A model generated the notes under the pieces. That model saw nothing but the letters and a program-made list of their open reading frames with translations, ran no database searches and had not been told where the DNA came from. Of a stretch of 7,891 bases of DNA, positions 1-7,845 are shown in pieces; within the stretch, counting starts at the first letter, position 1; each line of letters starts with the position of its first letter. The position numbers and the translations under genes are program-made. Origin of the DNA: Lentisphaerota bacterium (lineage in GTDB: Bacteria > Verrucomicrobiota > Kiritimatiellia > RFP12 > UBA1067). The DNA lies in contig SUVZ01000163.1 in NCBI GenBank assembly GCA_015061765.1, forward strand, positions 1-7,891. The letters are read 5' to 3'.

Positions 1-2559
1 CGAAGGTTCTCCATTGACCATTACGCGCCATGTGGAAAAACGCTCAACATCAACCGCATCTGGGAGCGCAACAGGCACTGTGTATCTACGCGGCAGTTCC
101 CCGTTTATTCCCACAAGATTCAGCGTCCCGTTTTCTGCCGGACGGAATTTCACAATGCTGCCGCCTCCCGAAGCGGCGTCAACCGTCAGAGACTTTATGG
201 AGATGTTTTCGTCAGGAACGCATCTCAAATCCAGCACGCCGCCTTCATCGACCTGCACCGTGCCGTCGCAGTCAAACAAGCTGTCGTCCGCCAGACAGCG
301 CCACTGGAAACCTTCTTCGCCGTTGAACATGTTATAGCCATCCCAATCAGTATATTGCGTACCTGCAGTGCTGTACATGTAAATGTCCGCATTTCGCCTC
401 TCGTCAACCGTCCGCCACGTCGTTCCGTCCGAACTCGCCTGCACTTCCCATGCGCAAAGTTTGTCTACGAACCAGTCAGTTGTCAGGTGGTAGCCCAAAA
501 TAGGCAAAGAGACGTCCGCACGCAGCCGGATTGTCAATGTCACCCATGTATTGGGATCCGCAAGGCTCAATCCCCTGTTTTCATTGATCATTACACCGCC
601 CCAGCTGTAGCGGTCCGAAAGGCCGCTAGGTGAATAGACGCAATTTTCGTTGGAACGTTTGCCTTCAGTATACACGATTCCGTTCGGGCACGAATACATA
701 TATTCGCCCTCGGCCAGATCGGATACGGACATGGCATCTTTATCAAGCGAATAGGTCGGAACTGCGGTGGCTGATGTCACACTGAAGGTTCTTCCGCCGT
801 TCCCCATTCGCAGATAAAGTTGGTTGAGTCCGAAAGACTGCCTGTTTTTGCTTTCCTTGAAAATGAACCTGTAGTACCGGTCGGACAGTGCTGACTTGTA
901 GAACTCCACCTTGTTAGTCATTCCCACCCCGCCACGAATGCGCAACGACGCGCCTGATGCGATGGATATGTTTGTTGAGACAAGTCGTCCACGAACGACA
1001 TCGAGAATACCGCCTTCCACATCAACCGCGCCTATTACGGACGCCGCCGGACGCCAAGGCATCTCCGTCGGAGTAATGTTGATAGAGCCGTTCTCGATGC
1101 TGGCTGTACCGCTGCGCACAGTCATAGCCCTTTGCCACACATTGGAAAGCACAGCCTTTCCACCGCTCGCATCGACAACAAACGAGTCGGGGCAGAACCC
1201 GTCGTCCATGGCATTTTTGTTAATATACGGGTGCTTGAGTACCAAAGCGGAACCATTCTTCGCGACAAGATTGCCGCCACGAGATGTGTTTTTCGCGACA
1301 AGCATTCCTTCTGCCACATCGAAACTGCGGACCGCAGGCAGGCTGCCGGAATTGAGCGTCAATACACCTGCGCCTATCTTCTGCAACTTTATGTTGGAAA
1401 CCGCATCTGGGGCGAAGTTGGCCGTAAGCACCTCGTTCAAGTTGGTATCGGAGTCAACATTAAGACGAAGCGTTGCGACCGTTTCAGAAGAGTTCGTGAT
1501 CGAGTTTTTGTCTGCACGGGCACCATCCTTCAGAAGTCCGTTGACCGTGACAGTCTTGCCGTTCAGGTCAATCGTAGTTGGATCTGTCGGATTTGTACTG
1601 TTGTAAAGGACAACCGGGCCGTTATGTGCTCCGTAAGGCAGGATGTTGTCATTTCCCATTAACCAACGTCCCCTACCCGAGAAAACAGTTCTTCCCTTGT
1701 GGTTCCAGATGATTTCGCCGCCATCGTCGTGGGAGAGGGTTATTGTCCAATTGGGGGCGGCGGCGTTGTGATACATCATGAAATCTCCGTCTCCGCGGGT
1801 TTCAAGCGTTCCTGCCCCTTCAAACAGCGTGTAATTCGAAGCCAAGGCTCGCATGTCAATCGGATTGCCGTCCACGCTCTCAAGGATGATCTTCGCGTTG
1901 TTGAGAACGTTGAAGCGCGTTCCTCCCTTGTTCTGCACCCAATGTGCACCACCCTGGAACAGTATCCTTGCTGCGACATTGGGATTGACATTCTTCACTC
2001 TGCGAAAACTCACTGTACCATTGGGAAGGAGCCTCGCGATGTCCATTACGCCGCCAGGTGCCTCAGCGTTGGCGCTGACCTCTACATAGCTGTAGTATCC
2101 CATCGTGCCAAAAGCTGTGGGATAAATATTATCTCCGACTCCCGGCACGTTGGCTTTCGACCCATAAATATACGATGGAGCCTCAGTTTGGGACACCTCT
2201 AAGGTGCCGCCTTTCCCGGTGAAAGTAATTGTATTATTTTCAGGGAGAACCCATTTCGCGCCGTTCTTGACAGTCACAGTTACTGGCTTCGCGGCCTTTG
2301 CTCCTATGATGACGGAAGAACTGTTTGTCAAGCCGGTGCAATATGTGCCGTCGATTGTTAAATCGTCGTTCACATTCACATTGTCGTATATGGTGGCTGC
2401 CTGCGATGCCGTCAGGGTTGTCGGCGAACCGGCAGGAACCGTAAAGTCCTCCGCCAAGGCAGAAGCAGAAGCGATTGCCGCCACCGCAAGGATGCATGCA
2501 ATCCCGTCGATTGATTTGTTCGTCTTCATTTTCACCATCTTTCCTTTATGCAATTTCAT
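1..2559 (-). CDS. Secreted PATR/autotransporter-associated beta-strand repeat protein (partial, 3' end beyond window)
   Basis: The frame starts at the ATG at 2559 and is open for 853 codons to the left edge, so the C-terminus is not visible. The start is chosen for its GGAGG seven bases upstream; in-frame ATGs at 2538 and 2529 are weaker alternatives. Residues 1-36 form a signal peptide: a lysine-rich n-region, a hydrophobic core (about 20-36) and a probable cut after ALA, before EDF. The mature part is rich in G, N, T, V and S with alternating strand patterns, as in beta-helix passengers. Residues 391-422 (KLQKIGAGVLTLNSG ... VAEGMLVA) match the autotransporter-associated beta-strand repeat signature. 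Residues 562-585 (YYRFIF ... LYLR) and 704-718 (WEVQASSDGTTWRTV) recall discoidin/F5-8C-like folds. Known for the family: exported or surface proteins of poorly defined function, common in Verrucomicrobia and Kiritimatiellota. Its position 15 bases after the mannanase gene suggests a glycan-binding or surface-scaffold role, which is inference. No catalytic motif was recognised, and any anchoring domain would lie outside the window. Confidence 0.85.
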   Translation of the reverse strand, partial: MKLHKGKMVKMKTNKSIDGIACILAVAAIASASALAEDFTVPAGSPTTLTASQAATIYDNVNVNDDLTIDGTYCTGLTNSSSVIIGAKAAKPVTVTVKNGAKWVLPENNTITFTGKGGTLEVSQTEAPSYIYGSKANVPGVGDNIYPTAFGTMGYYSYVEVSANAEAPGGVMDIARLLPNGTVSFRRVKNVNPNVAARILFQGGAHWVQNKGGTRFNVLNNAKIILESVDGNPIDMRALASNYTLFEGAGTLETRGDGDFMMYHNAAAPNWTITLSHDDGGEIIWNHKGRTVFSGRGRWLMGNDNILPYGAHNGPVVLYNSTNPTDPTTIDLNGKTVTVNGLLKDGARADKNSITNSSETVATLRLNVDSDTNLNEVLTANFAPDAVSNIKLQKIGAGVLTLNSGSLPAVRSFDVAEGMLVAKNTSRGGNLVAKNGSALVLKHPYINKNAMDDGFCPDSFVVDASGGKAVLSNVWQRAMTVRSGTASIENGSINITPTEMPWRPAASVIGAVDVEGGILDVVRGRLVSTNISIASGASLRIRGGVGMTNKVEFYKSALSDRYYRFIFKESKNRQSFGLNQLYLRMGNGGRTFSVTSATAVPTYSLDKDAMSVSDLAEGEYMYSCPNGIVYTEGKRSNENCVYSPSGLSDRYSWGGVMINENRGLSLADPNTWVTLTIRLRADVSLPILGYHLTTDWFVDKLCAWEVQASSDGTTWRTVDERRNADIYMYSTAGTQYTDWDGYNMFNGEEGFQWRCLADDSLFDCDGTVQVDEGGVLDLRCVPDENISIKSLTVDAASGGGSIVKFRPAENGTLNLVGINGELPRRYTVPVALPDAVDVERFSTWRVMVNGEPS

Positions 2560-2574: not shown

Positions 2575-5500
2575 TCATTTCTCCAAGAGAAATTCAAGAA
2601 AGTCCTTGCGCGTACCTTGTCGGCAGAACACCCCTTTAGCCTTGCACAACTCCTCGAACTTTACGCAGAACATCGCGGCGTGGGTCGGATCCTTCGGGAG
2701 TTCACCGGGCGGAGGAAGCGGAGGACACGTGTAGAAGAAACGTGCAGCACTGCCGGACGGACACTTGCGGAGAAGCTCCGCCGGAGAGTATCGCTCTATC
2801 TGATCCAGGCATTCAGAGCGGTGTTCGAGCCATTGATTGAAATCTTTGTACCCGAATGCACTCGCCCCGTATCTGGAATTGGGAATCCACTCCTTCATCT
2901 CCTTCGGATCGAGCGTGGTCTGCGGACTGTTCGCCAAGACCGCCCTGATACCCAGAACATTGCCGTCCATAAGCGAACAGTAGAGAGAAGAGCATCCGCC
3001 CGCACTGCCGCCTGTGAGTCCGATACGGGAAACATCAATGTTCCATTCGGAGGCATGCGCCTTCACGCAGCGAACGGCGGCAACCGCATCGTCCAGGCAC
3101 GCCTTGACCGGCGGTTTGACGTCCTGGTCCTCAGCGTCCGCAAGCAGTCTGTATCCGACCGTAACAAGCGCAATACCCCTTGCCTGGCAATCCTTGAGCA
3201 ATACGGCGGCATCGGCCAGTCTATCTCCTGACGTCCAACCGCCGCCGTGAAATACGATTACGACCGGCGTTCCGCCTTTGGCAGAAGCTTTGCATTTCGG
3301 CAGCCATACGTCCATGCCCTGACGTTCATGAGGACCGTATTTTACGTTCTCGAAATCGGGCACATCCGTGAACTTCGCCTTTTGGACGGGAGCCTTGCTT
3401 CCCTTCCAGTACGGGCAATTGCGGGTGAAGGCATATTTGTCTGATGGCCTGCGTCCGAAAACGCGGGCCAAGGCACGCAGCTTGAGGTCGCCGCGCCGCA
3501 CATCAGGTAGCAGCCAGCAGCCCTCCGTGTATTCGTTCCATGCATTGATGTATACTATGCCCTTTTTTTCAGGGTCGGACATCGCAAAAGCTTTGGCGTC
3601 ACGAAGGTATTTCTCAAAGATGGCATCGGTGTTGTTTGTAAACGTTCCGCAGTACGGATAGATTACATCGCCATTCCACGGGAACGGCACGTCGAATCGA
3701 CACCGAAGAGTGGCATCCCATCCGGTAGGCACGATGGGAAAGTATGGTATAGGTGACGCCTTGCGCTTTTTCGCCCAGCTGTCCTGCAGAAGTCCATCAA
3801 TTTCTCCGTAATCGAAACATGCTTCACCTGCCTTGAAACGTGCATTGAAATTCTTTACGGCGTAGGCGTTGAAACCGTAGTCTGTGAAGGAATCGATTCC
3901 GAGCGCCGCCATCCGCTCCATCATCTCCGGTCGAATTCCCTGAGCGTTGATGTGCAGCTCCCCTAATCCGGCGTCTCGGACGCGCTTCCTCGCCTCCTGA
4001 ATCGCGTCGCGCACTTTGGCGTCGTCCTTGCCCCATTTTTCCCACAGATCAGTAAACCTGTATATCGAAAAGAAGAGCCCACCATCCTTGCGGTAGTACT
4101 CCGGCTGGTTGAAGTAGTGTGCGATGGAATAGTCTATGAGACCGAGAAACTCTTCCGGAGTATGCGCAAGAGACATCAGCTCCCTGCGTTCTTTTGAATA
4201 TGGAGGACGGAACGCATCCCTTCGCTCGTGGTAGCACCACATCAGCGCGAATTTCATCTTGTCGCGGTTCTTCGCCTTGAGGAAACCTTTCTCGATCGCC
4301 TCTTCCTGCGTCTTCTCCCCGTTATACCAGTAGTAATCGTAGAGGAACACGTTAATGCCGGCATTGGAGGCGAGCGCGATCTCAGTCTCGACATGTTCAG
4401 GGTCTGCTCCGTTTAGATAGCCAGCCAGCGGCTTGAAGTTGATCTGCCCTTTGAATCTAGTCTTCGGGGTCTTTACAAATGCCCATTCGCCTTCCTTCCA
4501 TTTTTCCGCACCGAACCACTCGTCGCCCTTCGGATAACGATGCCAATGCGGATAATAAACAACCATCACGTCAGGACTGCGTCCGTCCTTTGCGGCTGAG
4601 GACTTCCGAGACACCCTGAACCCGGTTTCGGGTGTCGCCATCAACACTTCCGGACGGCGTGAGAACGCCAACTCATCCTTTTCAGATGCCGGCGTCGCGG
4701 GAATTGTCCCGTAACGATCACTCCACGTGTCAACAAACGCACAGTGCACACCTTCTGCCGTCATGATGCGGTGCAGGTACACCCAGAAGTCGTCGCGCTT
4801 GTTTTCGCCACCTGTCTCCGTCAGCGCGGCGACCTTTCCCCTCTCCTTCGCGAATGAACTAATTAGCCGCAGTTTGCGAACCGTCTCGTTCAGATTTTCC
4901 TCAACCTTTGCGTCGTTGTCGCGGCCCCGCGCAATCGAATAGTCGTCGAATCCTACGATGTCCACGTACTTGTCGCCCGGATAGTAGGCAAGGTATGTGT
5001 TTTCCGTGTCGCCTTCATTACCAAGGTCGTGCCAAAAACGGTCTGGCGTATAAGCGAAGAGTATCTGTCCGTCCCCACAGGCCGTACGCAGATAGTCGGC
5101 TGTCATCCGGCAGAACGCGCGGAACTCCTCCGGCGTGCACCAGGTGCGTCCCCACCAGAACCACGTGCCCTCCATCTCATGCCCGTAGCGCATTACGACC
5201 GGAATTTTCTCGCCTGTCTCCTCGTCGACAAGTCCGTTGAAAAAATCTGCTATGTTTTTAAGTGCGGCCATGTACCAGGCGCGGGGATTGGGATATGGCT
5301 GACGATAGTTTTTCCCCTCTACGCTGTCCATTCCGCAAGGACCGCCAGTGCCATCGAGAATCTGCCTGATCACATTGCGATCTGCTCCATACGACTTGAA
5401 ACGGTAGGATGCCTTCTCGAAGCCGTTGGTGCAATAGGGGTGGTCCATGTGCCAGGAGAAGACGGTAATGCCGCCCAACTCATGCCAGTGCCGCTTGATT

Positions 5501-5880
5501 GCGGCCGTGAGGGTCGCGCGGTTGGCGGCATAGTACTTGTCCCCCCACCATGTCCCCGTAACGGCATAGAAATCTGAATAGCCTATCACACACCTTTTGC
5601 CGTCCGCATATTTCGAATAGTCGCTCGACAAAGTCACCTCGGCAGTAGGCTTGGGCGCGAACCCTCTCTCCGTCTTCACCGCGAAACGGGCGTCGCCACT
5701 CCGTTTCCAAATGGTCATCCACGGATGCGTCCAGGCCCAATAGTAGTTTTGTGAGTTTGCCGTTTGCTTCAAACGGTTCAGCACCCGTTCGGCATTTGAA
5801 CCCGGTAGAGGTGCGGCCATACTCACAAAGGCGGCGACGAGCATCGCCGACAACATCAGTTTTTTCATACTTGTATCCAT
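2575..5880 (-). CDS. Secreted three-module enzyme: GH26 beta-mannanase-like, WbsX/GH99-like, carbohydrate esterase-like
   Basis: About 1,101 residues from the ATG at 5880. An ATG at 5868 gives a tighter signal peptide (MKKLMLSAMLVAAFVSMAA), and a TTG at 5895 is also possible. After export (cut near residues 22-23) there are three modules. (1) Residues about 30-395 are GH26: RYGHEMEGTWFWWG holds the expected acid/base Glu235, ALTETG the expected nucleophile Glu355, and SWHMDHP and VDIVGFDDY fit the family. GH26 enzymes are mainly endo-beta-1,4-mannanases. (2) Residues about 436-810 are WbsX/GH99-like: VMVVYYPHWH at the start, GINVFLYDYYWYNG, and INAWNEYTEG with Glu783 near the end. This fold occurs in glycan-active proteins of uncertain specificity. 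(3) Residues about 840-1101 are an alpha/beta hydrolase: HGGGW oxyanion-hole motif at 878-882, GGSAGG with nucleophile Ser959, and candidate acid Asp1064. No histidine follows His1067, and the C-terminus is short for this fold. Likely role: cleaving and de-esterifying a mannose-containing polysaccharide outside the cytoplasm. Domain calls are firm; exact substrates are inferred. Confidence 0.9.
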   Translation of the reverse strand: MDTSMKKLMLSAMLVAAFVSMAAPLPGSNAERVLNRLKQTANSQNYYWAWTHPWMTIWKRSGDARFAVKTERGFAPKPTAEVTLSSDYSKYADGKRCVIGYSDFYAVTGTWWGDKYYAANRATLTAAIKRHWHELGGITVFSWHMDHPYCTNGFEKASYRFKSYGADRNVIRQILDGTGGPCGMDSVEGKNYRQPYPNPRAWYMAALKNIADFFNGLVDEETGEKIPVVMRYGHEMEGTWFWWGRTWCTPEEFRAFCRMTADYLRTACGDGQILFAYTPDRFWHDLGNEGDTENTYLAYYPGDKYVDIVGFDDYSIARGRDNDAKVEENLNETVRKLRLISSFAKERGKVAALTETGGENKRDDFWVYLHRIMTAEGVHCAFVDTWSDRYGTIPATPASEKDELAFSRRPEVLMATPETGFRVSRKSSAAKDGRSPDVMVVYYPHWHRYPKGDEWFGAEKWKEGEWAFVKTPKTRFKGQINFKPLAGYLNGADPEHVETEIALASNAGINVFLYDYYWYNGEKTQEEAIEKGFLKAKNRDKMKFALMWCYHERRDAFRPPYSKERRELMSLAHTPEEFLGLIDYSIAHYFNQPEYYRKDGGLFFSIYRFTDLWEKWGKDDAKVRDAIQEARKRVRDAGLGELHINAQGIRPEMMERMAALGIDSFTDYGFNAYAVKNFNARFKAGEACFDYGEIDGLLQDSWAKKRKASPIPYFPIVPTGWDATLRCRFDVPFPWNGDVIYPYCGTFTNNTDAIFEKYLRDAKAFAMSDPEKKGIVYINAWNEYTEGCWLLPDVRRGDLKLRALARVFGRRPSDKYAFTRNCPYWKGSKAPVQKAKFTDVPDFENVKYGPHERQGMDVWLPKCKASAKGGTPVVIVFHGGGWTSGDRLADAAVLLKDCQARGIALVTVGYRLLADAEDQDVKPPVKACLDDAVAAVRCVKAHASEWNIDVSRIGLTGGSAGGCSSLYCSLMDGNVLGIRAVLANSPQTTLDPKEMKEWIPNSRYGASAFGYKDFNQWLEHRSECLDQIERYSPAELLRKCPSGSAARFFYTCPPLPPPGELPKDPTHAAMFCVKFEELCKAKGVFCRQGTRKDFLEFLLEK

Positions 5881-5912
5881 TTTAAGAATTCCCAATTGGA
5901 AGGTTACACAAA

Positions 5913-6064: not shown

Positions 6065-6346
6065 ATGGTATCCGCAAAATCAACTGTCATGCAGTTCCGA
6101 ATGGATACGGAACTGAAACAAGAAGCGGAAATTCTTTTCCGTGAGCTTGGCACTTCATTCGCCGAAGCTCTGCGCATATTCGCTCGGCAATGTGTCTTGA
6201 CACGTTCCATGCCTATTTCCATTTCATTGCCGCAACAGGCAACGGCAAGCGGTGCGTTCGCCAAATATGCCGATCCTGAAAAACGCAAACTTGAAAGCGG
6301 TGCTTTCGCCCTAGCCATGAATGCCAAACATGAGAACGCTCGTTGA
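6065..6346 (+). CDS. RelB/DinJ-type ribbon-helix-helix antitoxin
   Basis: A 93-residue protein. Residues 5-45 follow the RelB/DinJ ribbon-helix-helix pattern: a strand (TVMQFRMD), then DTELKQEAEILFRELG, then SFAEALRIFARQCV, followed by the usual MPISISLP segment. This part dimerises and binds DNA. The tail, residues 64-93 (AFAKYADPEKRKLESGAF ... KHENAR), resembles the YA-P/EK-A-KH tails that wrap around PIN toxins, so it probably neutralises the toxin encoded next. The start is supported by GAGAGG 11 bases upstream and the promoter at 6004-6032. The last 26 bases overlap the toxin gene, which implies translational coupling. Known for the family: the antitoxin blocks the toxin and represses its own promoter. 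The exact partner is inferred from adjacency. Confidence 0.85.
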   Translation: MVSAKSTVMQFRMDTELKQEAEILFRELGTSFAEALRIFARQCVLTRSMPISISLPQQATASGAFAKYADPEKRKLESGAFALAMNAKHENAR

Positions 6347-6689
6347 CGCAAACGTCGTGTTGCGGTATATGCTTCACGATGACGAAACACTTTTCCAGAT
6401 TGCCGAACGGGCAATACGCGATGGCGCGTACCTTCTGCCCGAAGTCCTTGCTGAAGTTGTGTATGTTCTTCTTGGCGTATATTCTGTGCCTCGCGAAGAA
6501 CTCGCTTCAAGATTGCAGTCTCTGATAGATGAGGTTCAAACAGAACACCCGGATGTCCTGAAGACGGCATTATCAAGTTTTGGCATGACAAAACTTGATT
6601 TTGTCGATTGTCTGCTTGCGGCATACAATAATATGCTTGGAGACAAGGTTGTAACGTTCGACCGAAAACTGAACCGCCTATTGCGGTAG
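6321..6689 (+). CDS. PIN-domain (VapC-like) toxin ribonuclease
   Basis: 122 residues from the ATG at 6321. An ATG at 6330 gives MRTLVDANVVLRYML, closer to the usual PIN N-terminus, and may be the real start. The fold is visible throughout: TLVDAN with Asp9, LPEVLAEVVYVL with Glu45, LDFVDCLLAAY with Asp93/Asp96, and VVTFDRKLNRL with Asp114. These supply the acidic metal-binding cluster expected of a Mg2+/Mn2+-dependent RNase. Length and layout are typical of VapC-type toxins, which cut tRNA, rRNA or mRNA and stop translation when freed from the antitoxin. No good ribosome-binding site is seen, and the start lies inside the antitoxin gene, so it is probably read by coupled translation. All active-site positions are present, so it looks functional. 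The specific RNA target cannot be read from sequence. Confidence 0.88.
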   Translation: MPNMRTLVDANVVLRYMLHDDETLFQIAERAIRDGAYLLPEVLAEVVYVLLGVYSVPREELASRLQSLIDEVQTEHPDVLKTALSSFGMTKLDFVDCLLAAYNNMLGDKVVTFDRKLNRLLR

Positions 6690-6837: not shown

Positions 6838-7038
6838 ATGAACCCTTTCAAGTATGGCTGCGCAGTTGACGGAAAGGCGGTATGCTCCAAGGAGTTCCTC
6901 TCCGCCTCCGCAACCTACAACACCTCCTCTGTAAAGGTGGCACTCTCCAAGATCGAAAAAGCGCAGATACTCTATTGGTTTGACGGAGACTACAGATTCG
7001 TCAACCCGTTTTTCCGCGAGTGGCTGCGAAGGCAGTAG
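6838..7038 (+). CDS. Short ORF, internally deleted remnant of an archaeal-type (AAA) ATPase
   Basis: 66 residues. GAGGA at 6826-6830, seven bases before the ATG, is a strong ribosome-binding site. Residues 1-12 (MNPFKYGCAVDG) match the very start of a family of about 350-380-residue archaeal-type ATPases, which begin in this way and then continue into a cysteine/arginine motif and a Walker A loop. Residues 13-66 match the extreme C-terminus of the same family: SKEFL, then SSVKVALSKIEKAQILYWF, then YRFVNPFFREWLRR. Everything between (Walker A, Walker B and sensor region) is absent, so it cannot bind ATP as the family does. The join lies near residue 12 and keeps the frame. This looks like an in-frame deletion of about 300 codons that left the promoter, start and stop intact. 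Family matches are from memory of the pattern. Whether the short product is made or useful is unknown. Confidence 0.6.
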   Translation: MNPFKYGCAVDGKAVCSKEFLSASATYNTSSVKVALSKIEKAQILYWFDGDYRFVNPFFREWLRRQ

Positions 7039-7058: not shown

Positions 7059-7817
7059 TCACTTCTCCTCCGTAACGACTACCGTTTCGATTCCGAGGGC
7101 GCGGCCAAGTTTCTTGATTTCGGCGGCGTGATGGCCAATACCGAGAGCGAAGTGGTGCGTCGGGCCTTCGAGCGACCAGTTGCGCAGGAATGTGCGCACG
7201 TCCGGAGGAAACTTTCCGTGCGTGTTGGTGTTGCCGGTTGCCGGGATCGGTCCTGCAAGCGACTCACCTTCTGCGACAATGAACTTGAATGAGCCATCGG
7301 CTTTGAGTCCAATGGAAAGCATCGTTATCGGACCTTCCTTGATGCTGAACTCCACGCCTGCGCCCTTGCCGGGCTTGCCGTGATATTTCTTGAGCGAGCG
7401 GAGGACAGGACGCTTCGCAGCGATGTTCAGGTGGTGAGGTCCGTCGTGTCCGACAAGAACCGTATCGCGATCAAAATCTATCGGATGGAACTCCGCAAAA
7501 CTGCCGCCGATATCGAGACGGTCGAATATCATCATCGCAACGCAGTTCTTGAGGTCGAACTCTCCGCACATCGGAAATCCAGCCGCCGTAAGAAGCGAAT
7601 TACCGACGATGAAGTTGGTTACGAGTTCGCGCGTCATGGAACCGGGTTCACCTTCGTAGTAGTAGGCGAATCCGTCGAGGGTGCGCTTTTCGATGAACTT
7701 TTCAAGCGCGACAGCGGCCTTTGCTGCAACGTCAAGGTCGCGTTCAGTGAGCTTTTCCGTCCAAGGATCGGAAACAGGATCGGGCGTATCGAAGAAGTCG
7801 AGAATGCGCTTTTTCAT
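7059..7817 (-). CDS. L-arabinose/L-fucose isomerase family protein, C-terminal metal-binding half
   Basis: 252 residues from the ATG at 7817. The sequence follows the C-terminal half of the L-arabinose/L-fucose isomerase superfamily, whose members are about 450-500 residues. Candidate metal ligands are all present: Glu86 in GEFDLKN, Glu109 in FAEFHPIDF, His124 in VLVGHDGPHH, and His221/222 in GPTHHFALG. Supporting segments include HGKPGKG, FIVAEGESLAGP and TGNTNTHGKF. Members interconvert aldoses and ketoses in the cytoplasm using Mn2+. The N-terminal domain of about 200 residues, which helps form the sugar site, is missing from this window. There is no Shine-Dalgarno before 7817, and the frame remains open to 7891, so this ATG may be internal. 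The upstream codons EVIA-MKKRILDFF read as natural helix, whereas the codons before them come from a palindromic repeat. It is either a gene continuing past the edge or a truncated remnant. The 3' end is tail-to-tail with the ATPase remnant, 20 bases away. Confidence 0.75.
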   Translation of the reverse strand: MKKRILDFFDTPDPVSDPWTEKLTERDLDVAAKAAVALEKFIEKRTLDGFAYYYEGEPGSMTRELVTNFIVGNSLLTAAGFPMCGEFDLKNCVAMMIFDRLDIGGSFAEFHPIDFDRDTVLVGHDGPHHLNIAAKRPVLRSLKKYHGKPGKGAGVEFSIKEGPITMLSIGLKADGSFKFIVAEGESLAGPIPATGNTNTHGKFPPDVRTFLRNWSLEGPTHHFALGIGHHAAEIKKLGRALGIETVVVTEEK

Positions 7818-7845
7818 CGCGATTACTTCGGCGGCGGCTTGTTGC

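Follow-up and report, generated by a model that had tools for sequence, protein, structure and literature searches.

The window, as we call the whole 7,891-nucleotide stretch of DNA analysed here, comes from a bacterium of the Kiritimatiellia with relatives among rumen MAGs. It carries a minus-strand gene in which GH26, WbsX and esterase modules follow one another in a single frame. This frame ends at the stop at 2575 and has no internal stops, and an alternative in-frame start, TTG, lies at 5895. Throughout, Pfam ranges are numbered from ATG 5880 and signature residues from TTG 5895. The features of the window on which the analysis rests are as follows.

1..2559, minus strand: next gene, with a signal-peptide-like start at ATG 2559, 15 bases past the fusion stop; cut by the window end
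2575..5880, minus strand: GH26-WbsX-esterase trimodular protein, 1101 aa from ATG 5880 (frame, Pfam, homologues P0002-P0004)
2578..3363, minus strand: alpha/beta-hydrolase esterase with HGGGW (H883), S964 nucleophile and D1069-P-T-H1072 (TTG numbering)
2680..2691, minus strand: DPTH motif (D1069, H1072), the proposed acid and relocated base, between beta7 and the next long helix
3481..4581, minus strand: WbsX module, a GH99-like barrel with ExxE = E788/E791 in NAWNEYTEG (TTG numbering)
4582..4620, minus strand: junction/linker that replaces the GH26 stop and the WbsX-esterase signal peptide (from six GH26 C-termini and six WbsX-esterase N-termini)
4621..5787, minus strand: GH26 module with acid/base E240 and nucleophile E360 (TTG numbering; roles by analogy; PF02156 and PDB matches)
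5812..5880, minus strand: putative Sec signal peptide MDTSMKKLMLSAMLVAAFVSMAA, by sequence reading
7059..7817, minus strand: C-terminal half of an L-arabinose/L-fucose/sulfoquinovose-isomerase-like gene, upstream of the fusion gene (PF11762, PF02952)

Domain content of the fusion protein

The N-terminus of the fusion protein, MKKLMLSAMLVAAFVSMAAPLPG, looks by eye like a Sec signal peptide, and the protein is probably exported, in line with the exported polypeptide described in the first-pass annotation of this DNA. Pfam searches matched GH26 (PF02156) to residues 126-316 (E 2.7e-25; 89.8 bits against a cut-off of 20.2), WbsX (PF14307) to residues 439-803 (E 1.3e-28; 100.9 bits against 25.1) and BD-FAE (PF20434) to residues 856-971 (E 5.6e-18; 65.7 bits against 26.8), while Abhydrolase_3 (PF07859) also matched the esterase over its cut-off (E 9.4e-13). 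With all matches over their cut-offs and the signature residues intact, this confirmed the annotation's reading of one uninterrupted frame with GH26, WbsX and esterase modules.

Both catalytic Glu residues claimed for the GH26 module were conserved in an alignment of the window sequence with 107 relatives of 360-470 aa, taken from the 120 listed (E240 in 108/108 rows, E360 in 107/108). The nearest solved relatives are the beta-mannanases 6q78 GH26C, 4yn5 and CjMan26C (2vx4), with E values of 5e-27 to 4e-30; they have the HE and E catalytic positions in common with the window module, but differ in that their match does not extend beyond GH26 in the window protein. By analogy, the module would be a retaining endo-beta-mannanase with E240 as acid/base and E360 as nucleophile.

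The WbsX module had been described as GH99-like with an NAWNEYTEG motif, and this description held for the PF14307 match, the fold and the ExxE pair. E788 and E791 were kept in 94/94 WbsX-esterase rows and in 14/14 rows of a WbsX alignment. The single WbsX sequence gave nothing significant against the PDB (best E 0.15), whereas the 14-row profile matched GH99 chains; the module has a (beta/alpha)8 barrel like that of GH99, and its ExxE pair aligned with that of GH99 4acy. OpGH99A (5ngw), the closest solved relative by profile, is without the ExxE pair in the alignment. We filed WbsX as GH99-related and not as GH99 because PF14307 alone matched the region in Pfam at E up to 1; with no GH99 profile match, it differs from the GH99 endo-alpha-mannosidases/mannanases (4acy, 4ad1, MANEA). 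Passages in PMC12394665 and PMC4220041 describe a 1,2-anhydro route for GH99. By analogy, WbsX would be a GH99-like glycosidase in which E788/E791 cut a 1,2-trans linkage (alpha-manno, alpha-L-rhamno or similar). Pfam's name for the family suggests a glycosyltransferase, a role that we do not favour because the protein looks exported and both the barrel and the ExxE pair match GH99. Search listings of the open-licence literature returned no description of a WbsX activity.

A candidate relocated base in the esterase

The HGGGW and GGSAG motifs claimed for the esterase are present (H883 and S964), and its fold, oxyanion motif and nucleophile elbow are those of a BD-FAE/Abhydrolase_3-type enzyme. 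In alpha/beta hydrolases, according to passages in PMC11878206 and PMC7034887, the catalytic His lies in the loop following strand beta8, and part of PMC9487903 places acid and base on separate loops. The window esterase has no His after beta8 (none past residue 1088). The first-pass annotation was silent on this missing usual catalytic His. The same stretch is without His in 87/94 WbsX-fused rows and in 34/116 standalone rows. Besides the oxyanion His, the window esterase has one invariant His, H1072, three residues past the acid Asp. Asp and His of the DPTH motif were found together in 116/116 standalone and 93/94 fused rows, and in both structure models they lie between beta7 and the next long helix. 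A wider search gave 441 relatives of the esterase module (E <= 0.001). The D..H pair is present in each of the 115 that were aligned, among them rows named as Haloferula, Gemmataceae, Chthoniobacteraceae and Kiritimatiellia.

From these alignments and models, we infer that the base of the window esterase has been relocated to His1072. Ser964 would serve as nucleophile and Asp1069 as acid, with His1072 as putative base on the acid's own loop, at +3 (DxxH); the enzyme would strip acyl groups that block the WbsX site. The arrangement differs from that of BD-FAE, a bifunctional feruloyl/acetyl esterase (6tkx/6xyc) for which a section of PMC8165983 gives Ser128/Asp237/His269, with 32 residues between acid and base, whereas the sole invariant candidate base of the window enzyme stands three residues past the acid. 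It resembles the SGNH hydrolases, in which, as described in part of PMC9487903, acid and base are held in DxxH on one loop, and D1069-P-T-H1072 fits this pattern. SGNH enzymes differ, however, in fold and nucleophile motif: the window esterase has a GGSAG elbow in an alpha/beta-hydrolase fold in place of a GDSL-type nucleophile block, and Pfam gave no GDSL family match for the window protein. The DxxH literature, as far as passages of PMC5465549 and PMC9487903 go, concerns plant pectin acetylesterases and SGNH enzymes, respectively.

An alternative, in our view unlikely, is that the esterase is an ordinary alpha/beta hydrolase that takes its base from another His, or a weak or dead enzyme, with DPTH in a structural role. 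Among the standalone rows, a His occupies one particular column of the post-beta8 loop in 45/116, and 37 of the remaining 71 have another His there, so a canonical base is possible for part of this set. His 1012 is also common, both in standalone (101/116) and in fused rows (72/94), but the window has Ser at this position. P0050, which reads NPTH with Asn for the acid Asp, retains Ser and His. Paralogues with the usual acid turn and a later His coexist in the same genomes, as judged by eye from 30 loci; 4 of these gave no parse, the D..H loci were of the family already aligned, and the rest included loci of a different subtype as well as truncated or ambiguous ones. Set against this, nearly all of the fused and standalone rows that are without a post-beta8 His retain the oxyanion motif and Ser964 along with the D..H pair. 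P0103, the sole exception in the fused set, reads HAGD in place of HGGG, and its Ser, Asp and His are all gone, with its WbsX motif intact; D and H are absent where the nucleophile is absent as well. P0103 is in itself a natural pseudo-esterase within a WbsX-esterase protein.

We lean towards the relocated base: a widespread subfamily of alpha/beta-hydrolase esterases may have moved the catalytic His from the post-beta8 loop to the position acid+3 (D-P-T-H), reaching an SGNH-like DxxH independently, and in Kiritimatiellia may have become stably coupled to a GH99-like WbsX module. If true, this would be an exception to the post-beta8 base and to the separate loops described in those passages of PMC11878206, PMC7034887 and PMC9487903, and annotation by the canonical His would mislabel such esterases as inactive.

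The conserved WbsX-esterase unit and its probable substrates

We compared the best 120 of 137 relatives of the fusion protein module by module. WbsX and esterase without GH26 were found in 107, and GH26 without WbsX in eight; three had all three modules, one had GH26 and WbsX, and one had WbsX alone. Most of the 107 WbsX-esterase proteins are 666-745 aa long (94), and 13 are longer. On this comparison, WbsX plus esterase is the conserved unit. Two-module proteins of Kiritimatiellia, such as P0006 (77% identity over 60% of the query) and the protein at locus L001, share the module order, the signature residues and a signal-peptide-like start with the window protein, but have no GH26 in front.

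The genomic surroundings of this unit were examined by Pfam searches of 30 neighbour genes from 11 loci. These genes were called by a codon-usage picker that, on the window, called the fusion gene too short and the downstream gene not at all, and the neighbourhoods are a rough guide. A GH78-type rhamnosidase adjoins WbsX-esterase in L003 and L005, and the start of a similar protein was seen by eye in L006. GH31 genes and GH31-GH127 fusions lie beside it in two Kiritimatiellia-like MAGs (L002 1167-17142 and L012 2873-8310), DUF6259 lies near it in L002 and L004, and L004 also has beta-helix and arabinofuranosidase-C proteins. The neighbours in L001 (GH39-like, oxidoreductase, phosphodiesterase/sulfatase) match no single polymer. 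WbsX-esterase is further fused to GH28 in P0029, to GH88 in P0056 and to DUF6259 in P0049, and precomputed accessions list PF00150, PF02065, PF13472 and PF05448 as additional partners. The neighbours in these few loci, together with the fusion partners, suggest rhamnose/arabinose/pectin-type glycans no less than mannan. Separately, L003 (2526-5720) and L010 (1-2775) each encode a hydrazine-synthase-alpha-like middle domain (PF18582) and an FGE-sulfatase domain in one protein.

The isomerase-like gene upstream of the fusion gene is 92-94% identical at the amino acid level to copies in five MAGs; curated models gave best scores far below their cut-offs for it. Close copies (80-94% aa) were present in 7/9 MAGs searched, and a WbsX gene lay near in 4/7: the two adjoin in G004, G005 and G241, are about 2.1 kb apart in G003, and are not near each other in G001, G002 and G008. 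WbsX/GH26 matches had been the basis for choosing the genomes, and G241 joined the set once its isomerase-WbsX pair was known; leaving it out gives 3/6. In these preselected genomes, the isomerase context favours deoxy-sugar or pentose-bearing substrates.

Taken together, our best explanation (probability about 0.6) is that this Kiritimatiellia gene encodes a putatively exported three-enzyme protein, in which GH26 was fused to a WbsX-esterase unit with a relocated esterase base, and which is directed at an acylated plant polysaccharide. The usual target of the WbsX-esterase pair would probably be an acylated plant polysaccharide that bears rhamnose/arabinose; with GH26 attached, the protein would simultaneously attack mannan and that rhamnose/arabinose polymer, or else a mixed region of the cell wall. 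The stable pairing of WbsX with the esterase, together with the gene neighbourhood, gives a concrete substrate class for testing.

The first-pass annotation had instead proposed that WbsX acts with the mannanase on one polymer and that the fusion packages debranching, backbone cleavage and deacylation. Spelled out as a rival explanation, all three modules would act on one acetylated galactoglucomannan, with GH26 cutting the backbone, WbsX removing or cutting alpha-linked side chains and the esterase taking off acetyl groups. We consider this rather improbable. That three glycan-active modules share one putatively exported polypeptide stands, and the PDB relatives of GH26 are indeed beta-mannanases. 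The two families also meet unfused: in G100 (contig C179, 34638-39146), about 2.4 kb separates a WbsX match from a GH26 match on the other strand. The link of WbsX to the mannanase's polymer, however, was not supported as stated, as the conserved partner of WbsX is the esterase, and the GH26 relatives are mostly separate, single-module proteins of about 420 aa. In the MAGs RUG10884 and RUG572, GH26 and WbsX-esterase are found on separate contigs. Fusions of GH26 to several unrelated modules also occur among the listed relatives: PF00150, PF07519 and PF17678/PF07971, which we take to be GH5, tannase and GH92, and PF13472, PF05448 and PF00295, presumably GDSL, AXE1 and GH28. In the few loci read, the surroundings of WbsX-esterase suggest rhamnose, arabinose or pectin rather than mannan. 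As to other GH26 surroundings, a heparinase II/III-like gene lies immediately upstream of GH26 in L011, and a metallophosphoesterase-like gene in L008 and L009.

Proposed origin of the fusion

Listing proteins of the same architecture, as the annotation had suggested, returned P0002, P0003 and P0004, which are 97, 89 and 87% identical to the window protein over 98-99% of its length and have all three modules with the same junction; P0005 (94% over 69%) has GH26 and WbsX with the same junction and ends early. The frameshift artefact raised in the annotation is not borne out by these database clusters. The three-module clusters comprise 3, 7 and 15 member sequences, and each of the three copies P0002-P0004 comes from one 3.6-11 kb contig in sequence archives. 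Although the three modules were found together in no isolate or complete genome and these copies come from such short contigs, it is most improbable that the frame is an assembly or annotation artefact joining neighbouring genes, because three other clusters, at 87-97% identity, and a GH26+WbsX cluster join at the same place.

Among the window protein and the four GH26-WbsX proteins, the linker sequence varies and the joining place is identical. All six standalone GH26 proteins compared stop near the junction, where each of six standalone WbsX-esterase proteins begins with a signal-peptide-like sequence. We infer from these sequences that one gene fusion put a GH26 protein before WbsX-esterase. 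In eight MAGs, four of them named for sheep or goat rumen or omasum, no match spanned GH26 and WbsX with all candidates scored, and no intact spanning match was among those listed for the class as a whole (288 genomes, matches in 203), with at most two candidates scored per genome. In G100, one match of 28% identity (query 333-809) crosses from GH26 into WbsX and contains four internal stops. Multi-enzyme fusions as such are known, because literature search listings include other carbohydrate-active ones; listings on GH26 and on multi-enzyme fusions contained no GH26-WbsX fusion. As a combination of known modules, the GH26-WbsX-esterase protein is new.

The gene downstream of the fusion, at 1..2559, is preceded by a GGAGG-like site and gave no significant Pfam domain. 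Its product has 27% identity over 289 aa to that of the gene after a standalone GH26 in L008, a hint, at the level of sequence, that the gene once downstream of GH26 stayed with it.

Upstream, the isomerase gene has no N-terminal half: its resemblance to full-length genes (82% DNA identity to L027) breaks off at 7820, with 71 bases of the window left, through either a rearrangement or an artefact of the contig end. Isomerase and WbsX genes adjoin in some relatives; in the window, two plus-strand genes lie between the isomerase and the fusion gene, a RelB/DinJ-type antitoxin gene at 6065-6346 (PF04221; TIGR02384 just over cut-off) and, overlapping it, a PIN toxin gene at 6321-6689 (PF01850). 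The codon-usage picker also called a 66-codon open frame at 6838-7038 (plus strand), between the PIN gene and the isomerase, which was matched in 0/70 compared loci.
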